A stretch of 61,187 nucleotides of DNA from IMG/VR virus record IMGVR_UViG_3300027339_000002, positions 1 through 61,187 of that record. One strand, 5' to 3'. Shown here one piece after another: positions 6,965-18,907 of this stretch. Under the pieces are notes generated by a model. It did not search any database. It saw only the letters and a list, made by a program, of their open reading frames with translations, and was not told the origin of the DNA. The stretch's first letter is position 1, and every line of letters starts with the position of its first letter. The DNA comes from a virus. The position numbers and the translations under genes were made by a program.

Positions 6965-7248
6965 GATGTAAGGCGTTGGATTGAGATAAGAAGAACGGTT
7001 TGTTCGACAACTGCGAGGGCGCATGGGTTACCGCCCAGTGCTTGTATGTGCACTGTTCGCATCACGGTTCGCTCTTTTTCGCTGCCTACTACTGCTCGTC
7101 CCCACGCAGATAGCCATTGTTCTACTGTGGGGGAGCGTTGATGTAGGGTATACAGCGCATTAGCGAAAGCGCTTGTCTCGTGTCGGTTGTCTACGCTTAA
7201 CCGACTAAACGCATTGCAAGCACTTTGCTGACTATCCGTGAGTGCCAT
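6961..7248 (-). CDS. Small paralogue with QAxGGNP C-terminus, copy 3 (95 aa)
   Basis: Shares with the next two upstream genes a C-terminal block of the form QA-x-G-N-P followed by a helix ending RLxx (here IQALGGNPCALAVVEQ ... IQRLTS). The N-terminal part is longer and diverged. Start ATG 7248 has AAGG six bases upstream; the first 52 nt overlap the preceding gene. Its stop overlaps the metallopeptidase ATG. Confidence 0.6.
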   Translation of the reverse strand: MALTDSQQSACNAFSRLSVDNRHETSAFANALYTLHQRSPTVEQWLSAWGRAVVGSEKERTVMRTVHIQALGGNPCALAVVEQTVLLISIQRLTS

Positions 7249-7439
7249 GGGTTACCTTGCGCTGCTTGTTGTTTCCAGTGTTGTATCGAGCGATGCCTAG
7301 ACGCCAGAGACAACGTATTGAAATAAGCGTTGATGGAGTTGAGGCCGAGTTCTGCGAGCGCCCGTTGAAAGTGCGTTATTTCTTGCCGCTCTTCAGCGCT
7401 CAGGGATACTTTGCGGATAGTGCTCAAAGGTAGCCCCAT
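7197..7439 (-). CDS. Small paralogue with QAxGGNP C-terminus, copy 2 (80 aa)
   Basis: C-terminal block QQAAQGNPWHSRIVSKVLAM then RLVG. Predicted fully helical. Related to its two neighbours by eye only (short conserved block and equal spacing to the stop). Lies 9 nt downstream of copy 1. Function unknown. Confidence 0.6.
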   Translation of the reverse strand: MGLPLSTIRKVSLSAEERQEITHFQRALAELGLNSINAYFNTLSLASRHRSIQHWKQQAAQGNPWHSRIVSKVLAMRLVG

Positions 7440-7448
7440 GATGTTCGC

Positions 7449-7697
7449 TTAGCCTTTCAGGCGTTCGACGGTAACTGCCGTCATGAGCGTTTTGGCCAGC
7501 TCTGTCGGGTTCGGTCCCTGCGCTTGCTGTTCGATCCAGTAAATCCACCGCAGCTGTTGGGCGTCGCTCCATCTGGCGAACTTCACGCAAAGCACTCTCC
7601 ATCCAGGCGATCCTTCTGCTCGCTTGTTCTGCATCACGCGTCGGAACAGAGCGATCAGTTGGAGTTCGTCGGGGGAAGGAGTGAAAGAACTTTGCAT
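7449..7697 (-). CDS. Small paralogue with QAxGPNP C-terminus, copy 1 (82 aa)
   Basis: Starts MQSSFTPSPDELQLIALF; ends with EQQAQGPNPTELAKTLMTAV then ERLKG. Helical, with a Trp-rich middle (RWSDAQQLRWIYW). It overlaps the end of the DUF3150-like gene by 43 nt; an internal ATG at 7634 is an alternative start. First of three related small genes lying between the DUF3150-like and VWA genes. Confidence 0.6.
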   Translation of the reverse strand: MQSSFTPSPDELQLIALFRRVMQNKRAEGSPGWRVLCVKFARWSDAQQLRWIYWIEQQAQGPNPTELAKTLMTAVTVERLKG

Positions 7698-10601: not shown

Positions 10602-10807
10602 AACGGGATCTCTTGACGGATGTCGACGAGGTACACGACGAACGTGTGCGCATACGAGTGGAGAAGTGTTTCACCGCGCAGAGCGCAGATCATTCCGTAC
10701 GTCTTGCGTGATACTTCAACGCAGTTATGCGGGCACTTCTCGATGGCCTCGATCAGCTCTGAAGGCGATGCGCAATCTTCAAGGCGGCCACTTGCTCTCG
10801 GGTCCAT
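10553..10807 (-). CDS. Hypothetical protein (84 aa)
   Basis: Helix-rich, with Cys residues (CASPSELIEAIEKCPHNC) and an aromatic core (YAHTFVVYLVDI). ATG 10807 is chosen because GGAGAG lies 8 nt upstream; an in-frame start at 10846 is possible. It overlaps both neighbours by about 50 nt in other frames. Not recognised. Confidence 0.55.
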   Translation of the reverse strand: MDPRASGRLEDCASPSELIEAIEKCPHNCVEVSRKTYGMICALRGETLLHSYAHTFVVYLVDIRQEIPLWREIISTAVAKSLKR

Positions 10808-11058
10808 GCTTTGCTCTCCAGCCACGGCTCTAACAACGGTCGGCACGCTAAAGCATCGAGGTACTTACAAACCCCTGCGTACATGCTGAACTCGTTAGAG
10901 TCGTCAAACTCACACCATCCTCCTACCTGTATGCATTGAAACAGGTACGTAAGCCCGACCAACTGCCCATGACTTAAGTCGCCGATGTCGCATGGTCCGT
11001 CGTTCATGGATTTCGCCAATTCACGAGAGATATCGGCGTCACCAAAATCGGTGCTCAC
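10753..11058 (-). CDS. Hypothetical protein (101 aa), GTG start
   Basis: MSTDFGDADISRELAKSMND..., mostly acidic, with a hydrophobic stretch LVGLTYLFQCIQVGGW. The GTG at 11058 overlaps the upstream stop by 4 nt (GTGA). No family recognised. Confidence 0.6.
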   Translation of the reverse strand: MSTDFGDADISRELAKSMNDGPCDIGDLSHGQLVGLTYLFQCIQVGGWCEFDDSNEFSMYAGVCKYLDALACRPLLEPWLESKAWTREQVAALKIAHRLQS

Positions 11059-12932: not shown

Positions 12933-13955
12933 TCACTCCTTGGAGTCGAGGTGCGCCACCAGGGCGGCGATGCCTTCTTGGCGCTTGGCGATCTCGGCCA
13001 CCAGCTTCTTGGGCTTGGCCTTGATGGCTTCCAGGCGAGCGATCTCGGCTTCCTGGGCAGCGATCAGGTCGTAGACCTCGCTGTCCTTGAAGTCCTTGAT
13101 GTCGACACCGTTGATCAGGGTCTTGTTGGTGATTTCGATGACGGCGGTCTTGTTGGTCATGATGCGGGCTTTCAAAAGTTCGGCCTCGACTTTGTCGATA
13201 TGGCCTTGGGCTACGGAAATGTGAGCGTTGATTCGAGCGCTCACGGCTTTGAGGTTGAGGGCAGACTCGGCTTCGTGGTTGATCGGGCTGTCACCGGCAA
13301 TCGCAGCATCGGCTTTTGCGAGTTGCTTGACGTACTCGTCGCATGCTCTCCAGCCATTTTGAGTGACGTAGTACTTCAGCGAGACCGTGTTGACGCAGAT
13401 CAGATGGAGCGGACTGCACAGCTTGTTGATCACGCCGTCGGCCGGGCGCTGCAGCTCGATGCAAATCTGTTCAAGGCCGCAGCCACGAACAAACAGCAAC
13501 TTGAGCTTGAGCAGTTCGGCTTCCGACCAGATCATGCCGTGTCGAGCGCGACGCTCATTGTCACGCTGTTTGAACAATGTGTTCCAGACATCGCCGTTCT
13601 GGTACGCCGGCTTGACCGTCGGCGCCTTGGGTTTTTCTGAATCAGCGTTTTTGACGCGATCCTCCCAAAACGCAAACGGCGGCAGATCCGAGAAGCCAGA
13701 CGAACCGACGCGATCTTCGATGTCGTAAATGTCATCAAAGTAGCGACGCAAGTGCTCTCGGTTTGCTGGTCCGTCGATGCTGGAAGAAGAAAGCACTCCG
13801 GCTGGAGCCACGGCGAATCGGGTCGCGAACTGCATGATCACTGTTCGCGCACGCGCGTGGCTTTCGCCGGCGCACGCCTTGTACATCTCGTGGAATGTAG
13901 CTTCGTTCTCGAGCACGATTGCGATCTCGTGCAGCTTATGTGCTAGGGCATTCAT
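12933..13955 (-). CDS. HTH plus coiled-coil protein (340 aa)
   Basis: A central segment MIWSEAELLKLKLLFVRGCG followed by LEQICIELQRPADGVINKL reads as a Myb/SANT-like helix-turn-helix seen in phage 'sub-unit count' proteins. The C-terminal third is a coiled coil (EVYDLIAAQEAEIARLEAIK). ATG 13955 overlaps the stop of the last array gene (ATGA) with AGGAG upstream. Possibly a DNA-binding or assembly factor; not assigned. Confidence 0.65.
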   Translation of the reverse strand: MNALAHKLHEIAIVLENEATFHEMYKACAGESHARARTVIMQFATRFAVAPAGVLSSSSIDGPANREHLRRYFDDIYDIEDRVGSSGFSDLPPFAFWEDRVKNADSEKPKAPTVKPAYQNGDVWNTLFKQRDNERRARHGMIWSEAELLKLKLLFVRGCGLEQICIELQRPADGVINKLCSPLHLICVNTVSLKYYVTQNGWRACDEYVKQLAKADAAIAGDSPINHEAESALNLKAVSARINAHISVAQGHIDKVEAELLKARIMTNKTAVIEITNKTLINGVDIKDFKDSEVYDLIAAQEAEIARLEAIKAKPKKLVAEIAKRQEGIAALVAHLDSKE

Positions 13956-14200
13956 GATTCTCCTTCTGTGAGTCTGAGGAATACGTGAGCAGCTTCCAAA
14001 GATTCAAACTCACGCGGCGGGTATCTGGCGTCGTCCTCAGTACGTACAGCAATGAGGTACGCTTTGCCTGATGATGCGTCGACCCTGAGTGACACGTACG
14101 TTTGATTGCGCCATATCCCTTCGAATTTTTCGACGGGGTATGTGTTTAGGAAGATGCTGGTGCCGTTCGTCGGGTCTATCACCCAAGAAGTCTCAGCCAC
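13952..14200 (-). CDS. Array paralogue 1 (most downstream, 82 aa, GTG start)
   Basis: Most diverged member: the helix reads FESLEAAHVFLRLTEGES and the conserved Trp before it is absent. GTG 14200 has a perfect AAGGAGG (from the LKEA codons of paralogue 2) 7 nt upstream; GTG 14182 would instead give the GTGA overlap seen elsewhere. Its last codons, ACA GAA GGA GAA TCA, provide the Shine-Dalgarno for the 340-aa gene. Confidence 0.65.
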   Translation of the reverse strand: MAETSWVIDPTNGTSIFLNTYPVEKFEGIWRNQTYVSLRVDASSGKAYLIAVRTEDDARYPPREFESLEAAHVFLRLTEGES

Positions 14201-14400
14201 GTTACAGCCTCCTTAAGTGAGCCAGCGCGTCGCGACTCACCGAACAGCGTTTTTCGTACACGCCAATGATCGTGGCCGAGAAGCTTGTAAATCAGCACAT
14301 CGCCCTTGATGCTTATAGAGCAGCGCGATGATCCAAGAGTGGCGTGCTCTTGCACAGGTGGAAACCTGATAACTTTCATGTCTTCCCGGCTGAACTGCAT
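14179..14400 (-). CDS. Array paralogue 2 (73 aa)
   Basis: Body ...KGDVLIYKLLGHDHWRVRK..., helix AGSLKEAVTWLRLLG. ATG 14400 has AGGG 7 nt upstream (from the codons of paralogue 3's YRVM). ATG 14379 would give an exact ATGA overlap but has its purine tract too close. Both starts keep the conserved part. Confidence 0.65.
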   Translation of the reverse strand: MQFSREDMKVIRFPPVQEHATLGSSRCSISIKGDVLIYKLLGHDHWRVRKTLFGESRRAGSLKEAVTWLRLLG

Positions 14401-14627
14401 GGCATAACCCTGTATGCGGCGTACGCGTGCGATAGTTTTTTGAACGGGCCGATCGTCGACAAAGTCCATTCGTCAGACGAATAGTTTGGTACGAGGTACC
14501 AGCTTTTGCGGTCCATGAATTTGGCGATTACGTAGTCACGGGTTACGCCGCCTTCAAAAATTACACAGCGCAGCTTCCTGTTTCTGTGCGTTGATGCGCC
14601 ACGGATATCTTTGTGGACGGTCAACAT
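14376..14627 (-). CDS. Array paralogue 3 (83 aa)
   Basis: Body with KFMDRKSWYLVPNYSSDEWT; the helix FKKLSHAYAAYRVM is followed by an extra eight-residue tail, suggesting loss of the ancestral stop after YRVM. ATG 14627 overlaps the previous gene by 7 nt, with TGAGG about 9 nt upstream. Confidence 0.65.
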   Translation of the reverse strand: MLTVHKDIRGASTHRNRKLRCVIFEGGVTRDYVIAKFMDRKSWYLVPNYSSDEWTLSTIGPFKKLSHAYAAYRVMPCSSAGKT

Positions 14628-14884
14628 GACACAAGCCTCAGATAAAGAAGCGCGTCCTTGAGCTTTGGGAAGAAGTCATACACAGCCACAGATTCGTACG
14701 ACGCGAGGTGCCATCCTGGGTGGCCCACAAACTTCGCGACGTAGACCTCGTCTTGGAGAGATGGCACGTACCAACATTCTGTTCTGGTCGCAACATTGAA
14801 GATTCCGCTGCGAATAAGCAAGCCGTCGCTCTGGTAGCAAGGGTGCTGTTTGTAGTACGAACGGACGCATCGGTAAGCGCTCAT
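14621..14884 (-). CDS. Array paralogue 4 (87 aa)
   Basis: MSAYRCVRSYYKQHPCYQSD..., later VGHPGWHLASYE and helix FPKLKDALLYLRLVSC. The longest member; the body may hold an extra strand pair (TECWYVPSLQDEVYV). ATG 14884 forms ATGA with paralogue 5's stop; GGAAG of the upstream WK codons lies 9 nt before it. Confidence 0.7.
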   Translation of the reverse strand: MSAYRCVRSYYKQHPCYQSDGLLIRSGIFNVATRTECWYVPSLQDEVYVAKFVGHPGWHLASYESVAVYDFFPKLKDALLYLRLVSC

Positions 14885-15081
14885 CGGTTCAGCTTCCACG
14901 AAACGATCGTCGCCTTCAATGTAGGGGCGCTTATGTATATACGCGCAGGGAAATTAAGCCATACGCGCCAGTGCGTTTCGTCCCTTCGTCTCGATATGAC
15001 GATCCAGCCGTGTTGGTCGCGTACCGCACAACGCAGACTCGCTGGATACAAGCGTCGATGAACGGTGAACTCTTTTTTCAT
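14881..15081 (-). CDS. Array paralogue 5 (66 aa)
   Basis: MKKEFTVHRRLYPASLRCAV..., Trp pair HWRVWLNF and helix APTLKATIVSWKLNR. Strongly basic. ATG 15081 is in ATGA overlap, with GGAG (from the CGG AGA codons of paralogue 6) 9 nt upstream. Confidence 0.75.
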   Translation of the reverse strand: MKKEFTVHRRLYPASLRCAVRDQHGWIVISRRRDETHWRVWLNFPARIYISAPTLKATIVSWKLNR

Positions 15082-15281
15082 GCTAGCAGTCTCCGCTGTG
15101 CAATAGCTGCTCTCAACGTTGGTGCTGTATACGGCACGCCGTCTACCCAAAACGTCCAGCCTGAACCAGGCGTGCGTTTCAGGAAAATCGCAGTGATTTC
15201 GCCGTTGTGATCCAAGGCCTGTGCGGTTGCTCGTGGCATCTCGCCGTCCTTGAAGCGTTGTACTTTGATTTTCTGGTTCAT
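15078..15281 (-). CDS. Array paralogue 6 (67 aa)
   Basis: MNQKIKVQRFKDGEMPRATA..., GSGWTFWVDGVPY and helix APTLRAAIAQRRLLA. The first Trp-to-helix spacing matches paralogues 9 and 10. ATGA overlap at 15281; GAGG from the LRM codons of paralogue 7 serves as ribosome-binding site. Confidence 0.75.
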   Translation of the reverse strand: MNQKIKVQRFKDGEMPRATAQALDHNGEITAIFLKRTPGSGWTFWVDGVPYTAPTLRAAIAQRRLLA

Positions 15282-15478
15282 CGCTTCATCCTCAGGATGA
15301 CCAATGACGCCTTGATGGTTGCGGCAAGTGGTGCAAAGGTCTCGTTGCAGTACCAGAGATTGTCTCTGCGCCTGCGGTACATGACCACGGTGCCCCACAT
15401 AACGTCGCGGTCTGTGAGTACACAACGTGCCCGCGTATATGACTCTTTCTCTTGGTAGCGGATGATTTTGTACTTCAT
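15278..15478 (-). CDS. Array paralogue 7 (66 aa)
   Basis: MKYKIIRYQEKESYTRARCV..., DNLWYCNETF and helix AATIKASLVILRMKR. The N-terminus MKYKIIR is very close to MKYSIVR of paralogue 11, supporting common descent. ATGA overlap at 15478. Confidence 0.75.
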   Translation of the reverse strand: MKYKIIRYQEKESYTRARCVLTDRDVMWGTVVMYRRRRDNLWYCNETFAPLAATIKASLVILRMKR

Positions 15479-15684
15479 CGCAACAGCCTCATAGCGATTC
15501 GGTTAGCTTGGCGCTTTACGAGAGCTTCGCGAAGTCTTGGATATTCTTGGCCTAGTACTCTCCACGTACCGCGGTCTGTTCGATACGCGTAACGGAAAAG
15601 TTTTCCTCGCCATACCATGTAGACAGAGCGATCTTCGAAGATCAGCGGAAGTTCACAGTAGGGTAAAGGTGCGACGGCTCTCAT
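15475..15684 (-). CDS. Array paralogue 8 (69 aa)
   Basis: MRAVAPLPYCELPLIFEDRS..., GTWRVLGQEY and helix YPRLREALVKRQANRIAMRL. The helix is extended by about seven residues beyond the usual end, but an AGG codon still sits just before the ATGA junction. ATGA overlap at 15684. Confidence 0.75.
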   Translation of the reverse strand: MRAVAPLPYCELPLIFEDRSVYMVWRGKLFRYAYRTDRGTWRVLGQEYPRLREALVKRQANRIAMRLLR

Positions 15685-15899
15685 CTGGTGAGTCTCCACA
15701 CGGCCAACAGCTCCTTCAGCGTGCGTGCATACAGGGTTTCGTCATCTACGTACGCACACCAACGGTTTCCGTTGAGCTTGGTTTCCTTGCAGAAGTACAT
15801 CTTTTCGTTACGGATCACCAGACTCGCCCAGGCACGAAGAGCATCTGGTCGTTGGGGCCGAATCCGTTTAATGGTCAGCCCTGGATATTTCGTGCTCAT
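15681..15899 (-). CDS. Array paralogue 9 (72 aa)
   Basis: MSTKYPGLTIKRIRPQRPDA..., GNRWCAYVDDETLY and helix ARTLKELLAVWRLTR. Closest by eye to paralogue 10 (both have NxxMYFC in the body and LKELL in the helix). ATGA overlap at 15899 with GGAAG upstream. Confidence 0.8.
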   Translation of the reverse strand: MSTKYPGLTIKRIRPQRPDALRAWASLVIRNEKMYFCKETKLNGNRWCAYVDDETLYARTLKELLAVWRLTR

Positions 15900-16114
15900 C
15901 GTTTGAGCTTCCACAGAACTAAGAGCTCCTTGAGCGTGTTGGCTTCAATGCGCTCAGTGTCTATATGCAACGTCCACAGCTTCGTGGCCCTCGACCTGAA
16001 GCAAAAGTACATCCCGTTGTCGATGTTCAGGACAGCTGTAGCTCGGAGTGATGGAGAGGCGGCGAGTGAGCTGCGCGTAACGTGGATAGGGCGACGTTCA
16101 CATAGCCAGTTCAT
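15896..16114 (-). CDS. Array paralogue 10 (72 aa)
   Basis: MNWLCERRPIHVTRSSLAAS..., DNGMYFCFRSRATKLWTLHI and helix ANTLKELLVLWKLKR. ATGA overlap at 16114; the TGG AGG codons of paralogue 11 give a strong GGAGG 8 nt before the start. Confidence 0.8.
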   Translation of the reverse strand: MNWLCERRPIHVTRSSLAASPSLRATAVLNIDNGMYFCFRSRATKLWTLHIDTERIEANTLKELLVLWKLKR

Positions 16115-16314
16115 CTCATAATCCTCCAGCGCACGATCGCTTCTTTGAGCGTGCGCGCTTCGCCATATCCCCCGTACTTCATGAGATACCGCCACTCTCC
16201 TCCCCACCTCCGCCATATGGGGCTGTGCGTCACATCTCCGACCTGTACAAACAGCTCGGCTCTCATGTCGTAAGTCCCGGTGCCGCGGGGTGTGCGGACG
16301 ATTGAGTACTTCAT
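16111..16314 (-). CDS. Array paralogue 11 (67 aa)
   Basis: MKYSIVRTPRGTGTYDMRAE..., GGEWRYLMKYGGYGE and helix ARTLKEAIVRWRIMR, the best example of the consensus. ATGA overlap at 16314 with TGGAAG of paralogue 12 upstream. Confidence 0.8.
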   Translation of the reverse strand: MKYSIVRTPRGTGTYDMRAELFVQVGDVTHSPIWRRWGGEWRYLMKYGGYGEARTLKEAIVRWRIMR

Positions 16315-16508
16315 GGTTTGAGCTTCCACGCTACCAAGGCCACGCGGAGCTTTCTATGGCCGGTGAGCTTTGCCTTAGACGGAAATTGAGTCCACCCCCG
16401 ACCACGTTCGTAATAGGCGATGCGAGACCACCTACCAGATTCAAGTTCACGAGCGGCGTATGCGAAATCGCATACGGGACCGAACCTGTGGATACCAAAA
16501 AGCCTCAC
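16311..16508 (-). CDS. Array paralogue 12, start uncertain (about 65 aa)
   Basis: Conserved end HRKLRVALVAWKLKP and Trp motif GRGWTQFPS place it in the family, but no ATG precedes the body. The only usual start codon is a GTG at 16508, inside the stem of the primase terminator. Alignment with MKYSIVR members would put the start at ATC AAG (16517), with GGAGG 7 nt upstream, a non-canonical initiator. It may be a decapitated first unit. Confidence 0.45.
   Translation of the reverse strand: MRLFGIHRFGPVCDFAYAARELESGRWSRIAYYERGRGWTQFPSKAKLTGHRKLRVALVAWKLKP
16458..16475. promoter_or_regulatory. 18-bp palindrome at head of the array
   Basis: GTATGCGA-AA-TCGCATAC: two perfect 8-bp arms around a 2-bp centre, 22 nt downstream (minus sense) of the primase terminator and inside paralogue 12. 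It looks like an operator for a dimeric regulator; no clear -35/-10 pair could be assigned beside it. Confidence 0.45.
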
Positions 16509-16525
16509 GATCTTGATCGTGAGGC
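16497..16525 (-). terminator. Rho-independent terminator after primase gene
   Basis: Minus-strand stem GCCTCACGATC / GATCGTGAGGC (11 bp, 2-nt loop) followed by TTTTT, 28 nt after the primase stop. It separates the primase transcript from the paralogue array, so the array needs read-through or its own promoter. Confidence 0.85.
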
Positions 16526-16552
16526 CTCCGATCTCGACTGTAGGGACGCGCT

Positions 16553-18907
16553 TTATTTCACCTTCTTGAGCGCCGGCTTCGACGTCGGCTTTGGGTACAG
16601 CGCTGATTGATGGGTCGCCCACTTCTTTGTGTCCTTCCACATGATCTTGATGCCGTTCACAGTCTTCGGCGCAATCCACACTTTTGTGACGTGGATGCGG
16701 TGGTGTTTGAGCATCGTGGTGAACTTGTTGGGCGAGTTCGGGATGTTGCCCACGGTGTACTCGAAGACCGTGCGGAGCTCTTCGCGGCTGATGTTGCACT
16801 CGCCGCTTTTGGTGTCGGTGCGTTCATAGATCCCTTTCAGGACAGCCTTGTAGTCCTCAACGCGGTTGATCTCCGCGGCATTGCCCATGTACGTCTCTGT
16901 GGTGGGCAGCTGGTCGATGAAGAACTCGAAGTCGCCGGCCTCCAGCGCGGCGCCGACGGTGTCGAAGCTGGTGACGGACAGCGAGATCATGTTCTGGCGA
17001 TCCTCGGTGTCCAACACCGTGGATGCTGCTTGCGTATTGCACGGGTAGTGCAGCAGGTAGTCATACATCGACTGCAGCTCGCTGTCGATCTGGTCGACTT
17101 CGCTCATGGTCATGACCTGCTTGAGCGGTACGGGCTGATACTTGCCCACGTTGAAGCGGCGGTCTTCAGGGTCGATGCGCACCACAGCGGACTTGTTCGA
17201 CGCCAAGATCCAGTTGGTGTAGTTGGGGAACTCCTTGGCCTGTGCGTGCATTTCGCGGATGGGCACCATGGGCTCGGTGATGAAGTTCTTGAACTTGGCA
17301 ATGACGCCGGACTCGTTCTTGAGCGCACCTGTTTCGACCTCGTCCACGAACACCACGAAGCATTGCTTCATGAAGTGGTTGTAGCGCTCTTCGAACTCTT
17401 CCATGCGGCGCGTAGCTGTCTGCTTATCGCCAAGCAGAGGGCGGATGATCTTGTTCATCATCACGCCCTTGCCTGTGCCCTGCGTGCCATGCAGCACCCA
17501 GGCCGTCTTGGTGCGATCGCGGAACTGCACGATGAACGCGAGCCAGTTGATGAAGTGCTCGTAAATCTCCTGGTCCTCGCCGAGCGCGTGCCAGATGACC
17601 TTGTGGCAGTTCTTCGGGATCGTTGTGACCTTCTTCGTGCTGGCCTTCATGAACGTGGTCAGCTGAAACAGATTGGCCACGCGTGTCGTCAAGTCAACGC
17701 GGACGTTGTCATGCGGGTCGAAGACCAGATCCCACTCAGGGATGTAGTCGCCCAGCGGGACGCCATGCTGTTTGGCGAAGTGACGGACTTGAGTCTCGTT
17801 CTTCGCGGGATTGAGATCGAGTTCATCGAGCGTGGCGTCGTACGTACCGCGGTAGTACGTGCTGGTCTTGCGGTCCAGGAAGGCCAAGTAGATCAGGCCC
17901 GACGAGGAAACGCGTGCTGCTGTTCCGGTGATCTGCTGCCAGTACTCCGGCAGCAGCTCTTTGGTCAAGTAGACCGGCTCGCCCTTGAAGTTGAAGATGT
18001 AGTCGGGGTTGTCTTCTGGGTGGTAGTACGCCCAGCTGTCCCCGCCGTTGAGGTTGAAGTAGACAAAGCCGCGCTCTTGCTTCATCTCGGTGATCGTGCA
18101 CACGTCGGGTTTGACGAGCACCTCCATCGCGCCGTGCATCTTGTACGTCGTCTTGCGCTTGGGCAAGCCGTCCTTCTCGCGGAGTTCGTCGATGCGCTTG
18201 CTGGTGCGCTCACGGTTCTTAGCGGTGGAAGGGATCGTGTCTGCGATCGACAGCTTGTCCTTTTTGCGCTTGACGAGCGTGATGCGTTGCTTGCCGTGCG
18301 GGTCTTTGATGCCCTTGAGTGTCGGCGGAGCGATGTAGATCAGCTTGTCGTTCTGGCATGCGCTGATGTCCAGAGGCCAGAGCAAGGCGTTGCCTGTCTT
18401 GGTCAAGGCCATCGACTGACTGAGCATGGGCGTGTCGTGGTTGATGCCGACCAGCCACTGCTTGAGCAGAGGTGCAGGGTACGCCTTGTCGAGCATCATG
18501 AAGACGTGGGCACGGAGCTTCTTGTCCGTGACCAAATGCGACGCGCTGTACTGCACGATGTAGGACACGTCCTTGAGTCCGATGAGCGCAAGGAACGAAT
18601 CCACTGTCTCGGAGTCAGGCAGTCCGTCGAGGTCGAACACGACCCACTCGGTCGAGTCGTTCGTGTTGGTGGTCCCTGCACGAGACTCCTTCACGAGTTG
18701 CCGGGAGATGTTGCCCTTGACGAGGCAATGACCGAGAGCCGCGTGTTTGATGAGGGCACGTTCGAAGTCCTGGAGGTTGCGAACGTCGATGTGGTGGGAC
18801 GAGACGTCGTACACGTGGGGATAGGACGTCTTGGTGATGGTGCCATCGGACTTCTTTTCGAAGCGCTTCGTCAACGGCACAGAAGCTTCCAACATGACAA
18901 GCTGCAT
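16553..18907 (-). CDS. Primase-helicase (AEP-like primase plus SF3 helicase, DUF5906 type)
   Basis: 784 residues. The N-terminal part has an archaeo-eukaryotic primase-like pattern, VVFDLDG (DxD) and YSASH, then WPLDIS. The C-terminal helicase has Walker A HGTQGTGKG (about res. 472-480), Walker B FVVFVDEVETG (about 516-526) and the SF3 sensor ILASNKSAVVRIDPEDRRF (about 565-583). It should prime and unwind DNA at the replication fork. ATG 18907 has no obvious Shine-Dalgarno; ATG 18895 is an alternative. A repeat-rich, AT-rich region lies directly upstream. Confidence 0.88.
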   Translation of the reverse strand: MQLVMLEASVPLTKRFEKKSDGTITKTSYPHVYDVSSHHIDVRNLQDFERALIKHAALGHCLVKGNISRQLVKESRAGTTNTNDSTEWVVFDLDGLPDSETVDSFLALIGLKDVSYIVQYSASHLVTDKKLRAHVFMMLDKAYPAPLLKQWLVGINHDTPMLSQSMALTKTGNALLWPLDISACQNDKLIYIAPPTLKGIKDPHGKQRITLVKRKKDKLSIADTIPSTAKNRERTSKRIDELREKDGLPKRKTTYKMHGAMEVLVKPDVCTITEMKQERGFVYFNLNGGDSWAYYHPEDNPDYIFNFKGEPVYLTKELLPEYWQQITGTAARVSSSGLIYLAFLDRKTSTYYRGTYDATLDELDLNPAKNETQVRHFAKQHGVPLGDYIPEWDLVFDPHDNVRVDLTTRVANLFQLTTFMKASTKKVTTIPKNCHKVIWHALGEDQEIYEHFINWLAFIVQFRDRTKTAWVLHGTQGTGKGVMMNKIIRPLLGDKQTATRRMEEFEERYNHFMKQCFVVFVDEVETGALKNESGVIAKFKNFITEPMVPIREMHAQAKEFPNYTNWILASNKSAVVRIDPEDRRFNVGKYQPVPLKQVMTMSEVDQIDSELQSMYDYLLHYPCNTQAASTVLDTEDRQNMISLSVTSFDTVGAALEAGDFEFFIDQLPTTETYMGNAAEINRVEDYKAVLKGIYERTDTKSGECNISREELRTVFEYTVGNIPNSPNKFTTMLKHHRIHVTKVWIAPKTVNGIKIMWKDTKKWATHQSALYPKPTSKPALKKVK

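Follow-up and report, generated by a model that had tools for sequence, protein, structure and literature searches.

Profile comparisons indicated that twelve adjacent minus-strand genes (p1 to p12), located directly behind the primase gene in the virus record IMGVR_UViG_3300027339_000002, are one family of highly diverged paralogous small proteins. The record comprises 61,187 bases, and this whole stretch of DNA was analyzed and is referred to as the window. The array was interpreted, with about an even chance of being correct, as a set of diversified accessory proteins, expressed early and subject to birth and death, that would bind different host or defense targets. A preliminary description of the window had placed twelve minus-strand open reading frames (ORFs) at 13952 to 16508; all twelve were present, with lengths of 66 to 87 amino acids (aa), and the lower end of this span was retained, while the upper end was moved to 16517 by a probable ATC start of p1. 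No account of this array was found in the literature.

Twelve tandem genes form one paralogous family

Each copy was compared with a hidden Markov model built from the other copies, and 2,484 ORFs of related phages served as background. At full length, nine of the twelve copies scored above every background ORF; one background ORF scored above p9, one above p10 and five above p12. E-values for ten copies ranged from 9e-8 (p8) to about 0.06. The sequence preceding the last 6 residues was examined for conservation, which was detected: p2, p3, p6, p7, p8, p10 and p11 remained above all background when the last 7 residues were removed (one background ORF exceeded p4), and p6, p8 and p11 did so even when the last 18 residues, and hence the whole C-terminal helix, were removed. 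The p1, p5, p9 and p12 proteins were weak on their own in the test without the last 7 residues. No background ORF scored above full-length p5, and membership of the weakest copies (p1, p5 and p9) was assigned by full-length score, shared plan, a conserved Trp and position.

The family was also examined in both directions between phages, using syntenic loci designated L042 (IMGVR_UViG_3300037423_000726), L021 (IMGVR_UViG_3300044719_000205) and L050 (IMGVR_UViG_3300044656_000217). When a profile of the window copies alone was run against all ORFs of 97 sequences, the top matches outside the window were one L021 ORF and one L042 ORF, both from the same syntenic region. With a profile restricted to the L042, L021 and L050 copies, p10 ranked first (E = 2.1e-5), L048:13720-13971 second and p12 third (E = 0.011) among the nonmembers in a set of 13,903 ORFs. 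The paralogy proposed in the preliminary description was thus supported by the leave-one-out profiles and by recovery of p10 and p12 with a profile from other phages. Its statement that the bodies are so diverged that only the plan and the end motif remain was a fair one, as pairwise searches linked only p3 and p4. Similarly, a tree of 21 copies had nearly no supported forks, with only the p3-p4 pair being firm; p10 and p12 lay nearer to the copies of other phages, on unsupported forks.

Gene junctions and the shared C-terminal end

The twelve genes tile positions 16517 to 13952 without gaps. A 4-nucleotide (nt) ATGA stop/start overlap was present at 9 of the 11 internal junctions, and the other two had overlaps of 7 nt (p9/p10) and 22 nt (p11/p12). 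Most of the Shine-Dalgarno sequences lie within the codons for the last helix of the preceding protein, where TGGAAG or TGGAGR specifies W-K/R and is followed by a Leu, Ile or Met codon. Both features of a coupled overlapping gene chain, the ATGA overlap and a Shine-Dalgarno sequence inside the preceding gene, were therefore found, and from the gene overlaps we infer translational coupling (a process treated in PMC6728339) along the array. The first copy probably starts at a noncanonical ATC (16517) and not at GTG 16508. A strong Shine-Dalgarno sequence, GGAGG, is located at 16529-16525, 7 nt upstream of this ATC, which aligns with the starts of the other copies, and no ATG, GTG or TTG was found at a proper distance from the GGAGG on the minus strand of 16506-16529.

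A shared end of the type WKLKR-stop had been noted for these proteins. The shared end was confirmed, with deviations at the C termini of p5, p9, p10 and p12, but the terminal W-[KR]-L-x-R was a protein motif only in part, its residues overlapping the Shine-Dalgarno sequence and ATGA of the next gene. The Arg at the junction was encoded by AGA or AGG in nine of nine cases, as opposed to 24 of the 91 other Arg codons of the array (Fisher p = 2e-5), which suggested that this end is partly a nucleic acid signal. A Trp before the last helix, reported earlier for most copies, was found in 11 of 12 (p12 being the exception), and the Leu of T-L-K was kept in nearly all copies. Nonhomologous small proteins of relatives likewise end in sequences of the ARLRG or MRLKG type. 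Spurious ORFs contaminated a general survey of ATGA junctions, which was usable only for showing purine-coding residues near the ends.

Elsewhere in the window, the small minus-strand genes at 7197-7439, 7449-7697 and 10753-11058 end in AMRLVG, VERLKG or AHRLQS. A further small-protein family, helical in character and sharing the end signal, is possibly represented by these genes, whose ends resemble those of helical small-gene families in L021, L022 and L031.

Predicted fold and library searches

An AlphaFold2 model of p8, generated with the twelve-copy alignment, consisted of a five-strand beta meander (strands at residues 5-10, 15-20, 26-31, 37-42 and 46-51, start residue omitted) followed by a C-terminal helix at 54-64 (predicted local distance difference test [pLDDT], 84.8; predicted template modeling score [pTM], 0.70). 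This model supports a predicted beta-rich body with a C-terminal helix, while the three strands of the beta-beta-beta-alpha layout proposed at first gave way to five. A model led by an L042 copy, generated from an independent alignment without window sequences, consisted of a meander of four strands, a short helix and, again, the C-terminal helix (pLDDT, 77; pTM, 0.67). The two models were compatible by the order of their elements, a comparison that covers these two proteins only.

Searches with the array family against Pfam, PHROGs, NCBIfam, PADLOC and PDB sequences detected no significant match, and the PADLOC models gave zero matches at E-values up to 1. Foldseek comparisons with solved structures yielded nothing with an E-value below 0.001, the top matches being unrelated and of low probability; among these, SOCS/SH2 and polo-box domains (E-values of 0.4 or worse, low TM-scores) were not used. 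Fold matches in BFVD to small phage proteins, such as N4 gp8 (TM-scores of 0.59/0.55, E = 0.37), were suggestive only. An AP2-type or integrase arm-type DNA-binding domain was not supported, as nothing significant was found in Pfam, PHROGs or Foldseek searches; the GPFDT-x-EAA turn and helix have what we take to be a loose resemblance to AP2-type domains, a lead for which the curated models gave no match.

Charge, codon use and selection

The array differs from core genes of the window in composition. Of 100 Arg codons in the array, 33 were AGA or AGG; neither occurred among the 36 Arg codons of the primase, and their share was 0% in the portal and largest virion genes. The G+C content at third codon positions (GC3) was 0.46 to 0.72 in the array versus 0.84 in the primase. 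Net charge ranged from +2 to +11 in p1 to p11 and was -5 in p12, the 11 basic copies having isoelectric points of 8.4 to 11.5. The homologues of relatives had net charges of -6 to +2, so that the same scaffold spans -6 to +11. Strong positive charge was thus specific to the window phage, and nucleic acid binding is therefore not predicted to be a family trait.

Divergence within the family was saturated, with end branches mostly exceeding one change per column. Twelve intact overlapping ORFs persist despite this divergence, which suggests that selection acts on the proteins; the chance of twelve open frames in unconstrained DNA of this composition was about 7e-16. Promoter and terminator scans found no excess marking the array.

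The same locus in related phages

With the primase as an anchor, more than 70 nonredundant syntenic loci were collected, 71 of which had at least 1.5 kb downstream. Array homologues were detected in four of these loci. L042 has six intact copies and one frameshifted copy (L042:9376-9612), in which the conserved end (GPYDTLKEAHVVVQLLKD) is found in a different frame. Two copies are present in L021, and L050 and L048 have one each, that of L048 being located farther downstream. The copy number comparison suggested in the preliminary description thus produced a series of 12, 7, 2, 1 and 0. Primases of the relatives with 7, 2 or 1 copies were 54 to 66% identical, and other relatives at a similar primase distance had no array or an unrelated Cys-rich array. 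The L042, L021 and L050 homologues resemble the window copies in their location directly behind a homologous primase, compatible predicted fold and several ATGA-overlapping junctions. They differ in having a GP[FY]DTxEAA motif, where the window array has [AS]xTLKEAxxxW, and in being mostly acidic or neutral, whereas the window copies are mostly basic.

In 12 loci, this position was occupied by members of the Cys-rich family, tandemly amplified in several, with 8 copies in L004, 7 in L032, 5 each in L039 and L141 and fewer elsewhere. These arrays are similar to that of the window in having tandem, mostly overlapping genes for proteins of about 60 to 90 aa, the same primase upstream and Arg-Leu-rich ends that encode purine-rich sequence. 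Their CxxC...C...C bodies are different, and the two families were unrelated by profile-profile comparison (hhalign probability of 0.8%). A search of PHROGs with a tested set of Cys-rich proteins gave no significant match. No locus had both array types, an exclusion that is not significant at 4 and 12 loci.

Further searches for homologues were made. A pattern search for GPFDTxEAA recovered L042 and L021 again, plus 37 stretches with at best weak single-copy resemblance. No match to a DNA pattern of the end motif was present in the viral contigs searched, and tblastn with the L042 and L021 homologues found no credible match in phages. When 19 relatives, KPP25 and phiR18 among them, were searched as whole records, the window profile had no match, a weak negative as this search had no positive control.

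Other small-gene groups were observed in related loci. L022:12323-13754 has about 6 helical tandem paralogues with RLRMTT ends, and L081:2581-9825 has 8 small paralogues with a SPQGxxYW-like motif. Glycine-rich GYGDGNGSG-repeat proteins are encoded in the same neighborhood at L050:7199-7543, L007:14524-14787, L012:5988-6260, L022:14136-14778 and L045:12869-13195.

Genome setting

Terminase, portal and virion genes are located on the plus strand of the window, and replication genes (helicase, exonuclease, primase and ligase) are on the minus strand. The gene downstream of the array overlaps the p12 stop by an ATGA, and a PHROGs search with its protein gave no match. A Burkholderiales host is plausible but unproven for the window phage, as relatives occur in bacterial contigs of Variovorax, Herminiimonas and metagenome-assembled genomes of Janthinobacterium and Polaromonas. 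Coordinates are listed in Table 1.

Table 1. Genes of the array, flanking genes and Cys-rich arrays of related loci
Feature	Position	Strand	Remarks
Primase-like protein	16553..18907	-	784 aa; phrog_24712 match across nearly entire length; directly upstream of array
p1, first array copy	16311..16517	-	Leave-one-out E-value 0.0025; start probably ATC, alternative start GTG 16508
p2, array protein	16111..16314	-	67 aa; C-terminal end ARTLKEAIVRWRIMR
p3, array protein	15896..16114	-	72 aa; C-terminal end ANTLKELLVLWKLKR; pairwise paralogue of p4
p4, array protein	15681..15899	-	72 aa; C-terminal end ARTLKELLAVWRLTR; pairwise paralogue of p3
p5, most diverged derived copy	15475..15684	-	69 aa; C-terminal extension; leave-one-out E-value 0.059
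p6, array protein	15278..15478	-	66 aa; above all background even without C-terminal helix
p7, array protein	15078..15281	-	67 aa
p8, array protein	14881..15081	-	66 aa; structure modeled
p9, array protein	14621..14884	-	87 aa
p10, array protein	14376..14627	-	83 aa; GPF motif; nearest to homologues of other phages
p11, array protein	14179..14379	-	66 aa; LKEA codons (CTTAAGGAGGCT) contain p12 Shine-Dalgarno sequence
p12, last copy	13952..14200	-	82 aa; GTG start; acidic; without conserved Trp
Downstream gene at array end	12933..13955	-	340 aa
Cys-rich tandem arrays	L004:12376-14117, L032:9151-11025, L039:9265-10481, L141:10836-12148		CxxC..C..C; ends ARLRG/MRLKG

Discussion

Under the reading favored here, a single scaffold of about 70 residues, comprising a beta meander and a C-terminal helix, has undergone repeated tandem duplication and extreme divergence, giving twelve paralogues in one operon segment that is probably translationally coupled. 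Expression is probably early, together with the replication genes, because the array adjoins the primase on the replication strand. The locus undergoes birth and death of copies, which arise, diverge and decay, and in relatives another small-protein family is amplified there; this turnover is seen in the occurrence of 1, 2, 7 and 12 copies, the frameshifted copy and the alternative Cys-rich arrays. Each copy may be a small accessory binding protein with a core kept by selection and a changing surface, and the set of copies would meet several or changing host or defense proteins during takeover or counterdefense. Chained ATGA overlaps and a Shine-Dalgarno sequence in the last helix would allow each new in-frame duplicate to be expressed automatically, which would make array growth easy. 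Accessory proteins with variable partners are favored over a fixed machine by the conserved scaffold combined with a freely varying surface charge, by the gain and loss of copies and by the lack of the array in relatives. In relatives, this position holds a smaller number of copies, no copy or another amplified family, which points away from core machinery and toward a site where tools against the host diversify rapidly. The diversified array noted at first was supported, and of the roles suggested for it, diversification in an arms race would fit this pattern best.

Several points weigh against this reading. No homologue of known function was found in Pfam, PHROGs, NCBIfam, PADLOC or PDB, nor was there a significant fold match in the structure libraries. 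High turnover would also be consistent with weakly selected genes, and no close relatives were available for a dN/dS test of positive selection. A mostly neutral amplification, in which duplicates arising by slippage or recombination are retained for their small size and automatic expression, with little function per copy, would be consistent with the copy number turnover, the frameshifted copy, the atypical codon use and the low GC3. All twelve frames are, however, open at saturated divergence, and the Trp, the Leu and the coupling signals have been kept, making this explanation an unlikely one. Far less probable still is the absence of any protein family, the shared end reflecting no more than the constraint that Shine-Dalgarno and stop/start sequences impose in a dense operon. 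Such a constraint would explain the arginine codons at the junctions and the ARLRG or MRLKG ends of nonhomologous proteins, but it would not explain homology that survives loss of the last 7 residues, and of the last 18 in three copies, or the agreement of the cross-phage profiles.

Two further explanations were considered. The twelve paralogues could be subunits of one particle or ring, cotranslated in similar amounts, such as an accessory of the adjacent replication proteins. A multisubunit assembly had been raised in the preliminary description, and a hetero-oligomeric one is consistent with the location beside the primase and with the tight ATGA overlap chain and its embedded Shine-Dalgarno sequences, since the products of coupled overlapping gene pairs are often components of one heteromeric complex (PMC10666635). 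It is disfavored by the variation to 7, 2 or 1 copies in relatives, by the absence of the array or its replacement by an unrelated Cys-rich array in others at a similar distance and by the lack of charge conservation, and we consider it improbable. A similarly low probability was assigned to small basic proteins acting on DNA or RNA during replication, either as a coat or as regulators. The many Arg and Lys residues had led to the suggestion of nucleic acid binding in the preliminary description, and the basic character of 11 copies, the adjoining primase and a weak match of one homologue to an HNH-endonuclease PHROG (E = 0.12) agree with it. The acidic p12 and the mostly acidic or neutral homologues weaken it, as do the lack of a DNA-binding Pfam match and of a significant PDB fold match; the step from basic charge to DNA binding was dropped after charges were compared with those of the homologues.

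Tandem clusters of tiny uncharacterized genes are a suspected store of phage anti-host and anti-defense proteins, although the genes mostly look like orphans. Here, a dozen orphans were found to belong to one family with a fixed location in the genome, which relatives fill with other amplified families. A conserved anchor, the phrog_24712 primase, locates the locus and makes it a searchable source of candidate host interaction proteins and a system for studying the growth and diversification of a phage gene array. The slot behind the primase might even be a diversification locus dedicated to this role in a clade of phages, in which any small scaffold that lands there is amplified into a coupled array and diversified; this proposal is tentative and was given clearly less than an even chance. 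If it were true, each phage would have its own set of as many as twelve effectors, and the coupling geometry (Shine-Dalgarno sequence in the last helix, ATGA) would make array growth self-propagating.

Comparison with known systems gave partial parallels. The Pseudomonas phages KPP25 and phiR18 (genus Kochitakasuvirus) have a primase 42% identical to that of the window and a similar block of replication genes, but none of the array proteins was detected in them, either by the ORF profile searches or by the whole-record search, the latter made without a positive control. Single-copy phage proteins ending in GP[FY]DTxEAA have a short body and the same turn and helix start; they differ in their weak profile scores, nontandem arrangement and location elsewhere than behind this primase, and homology was not established. 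Uncharacterized anti-CRISPR paralogues occur within one archaeal viral genome, as described in PMC11065993. No sequence relation between these proteins and the array was found, no search having been aimed at one, and anti-defense activity of the array is only presumed; as several small viral paralogues in one genome, they would provide a precedent for the principle only.

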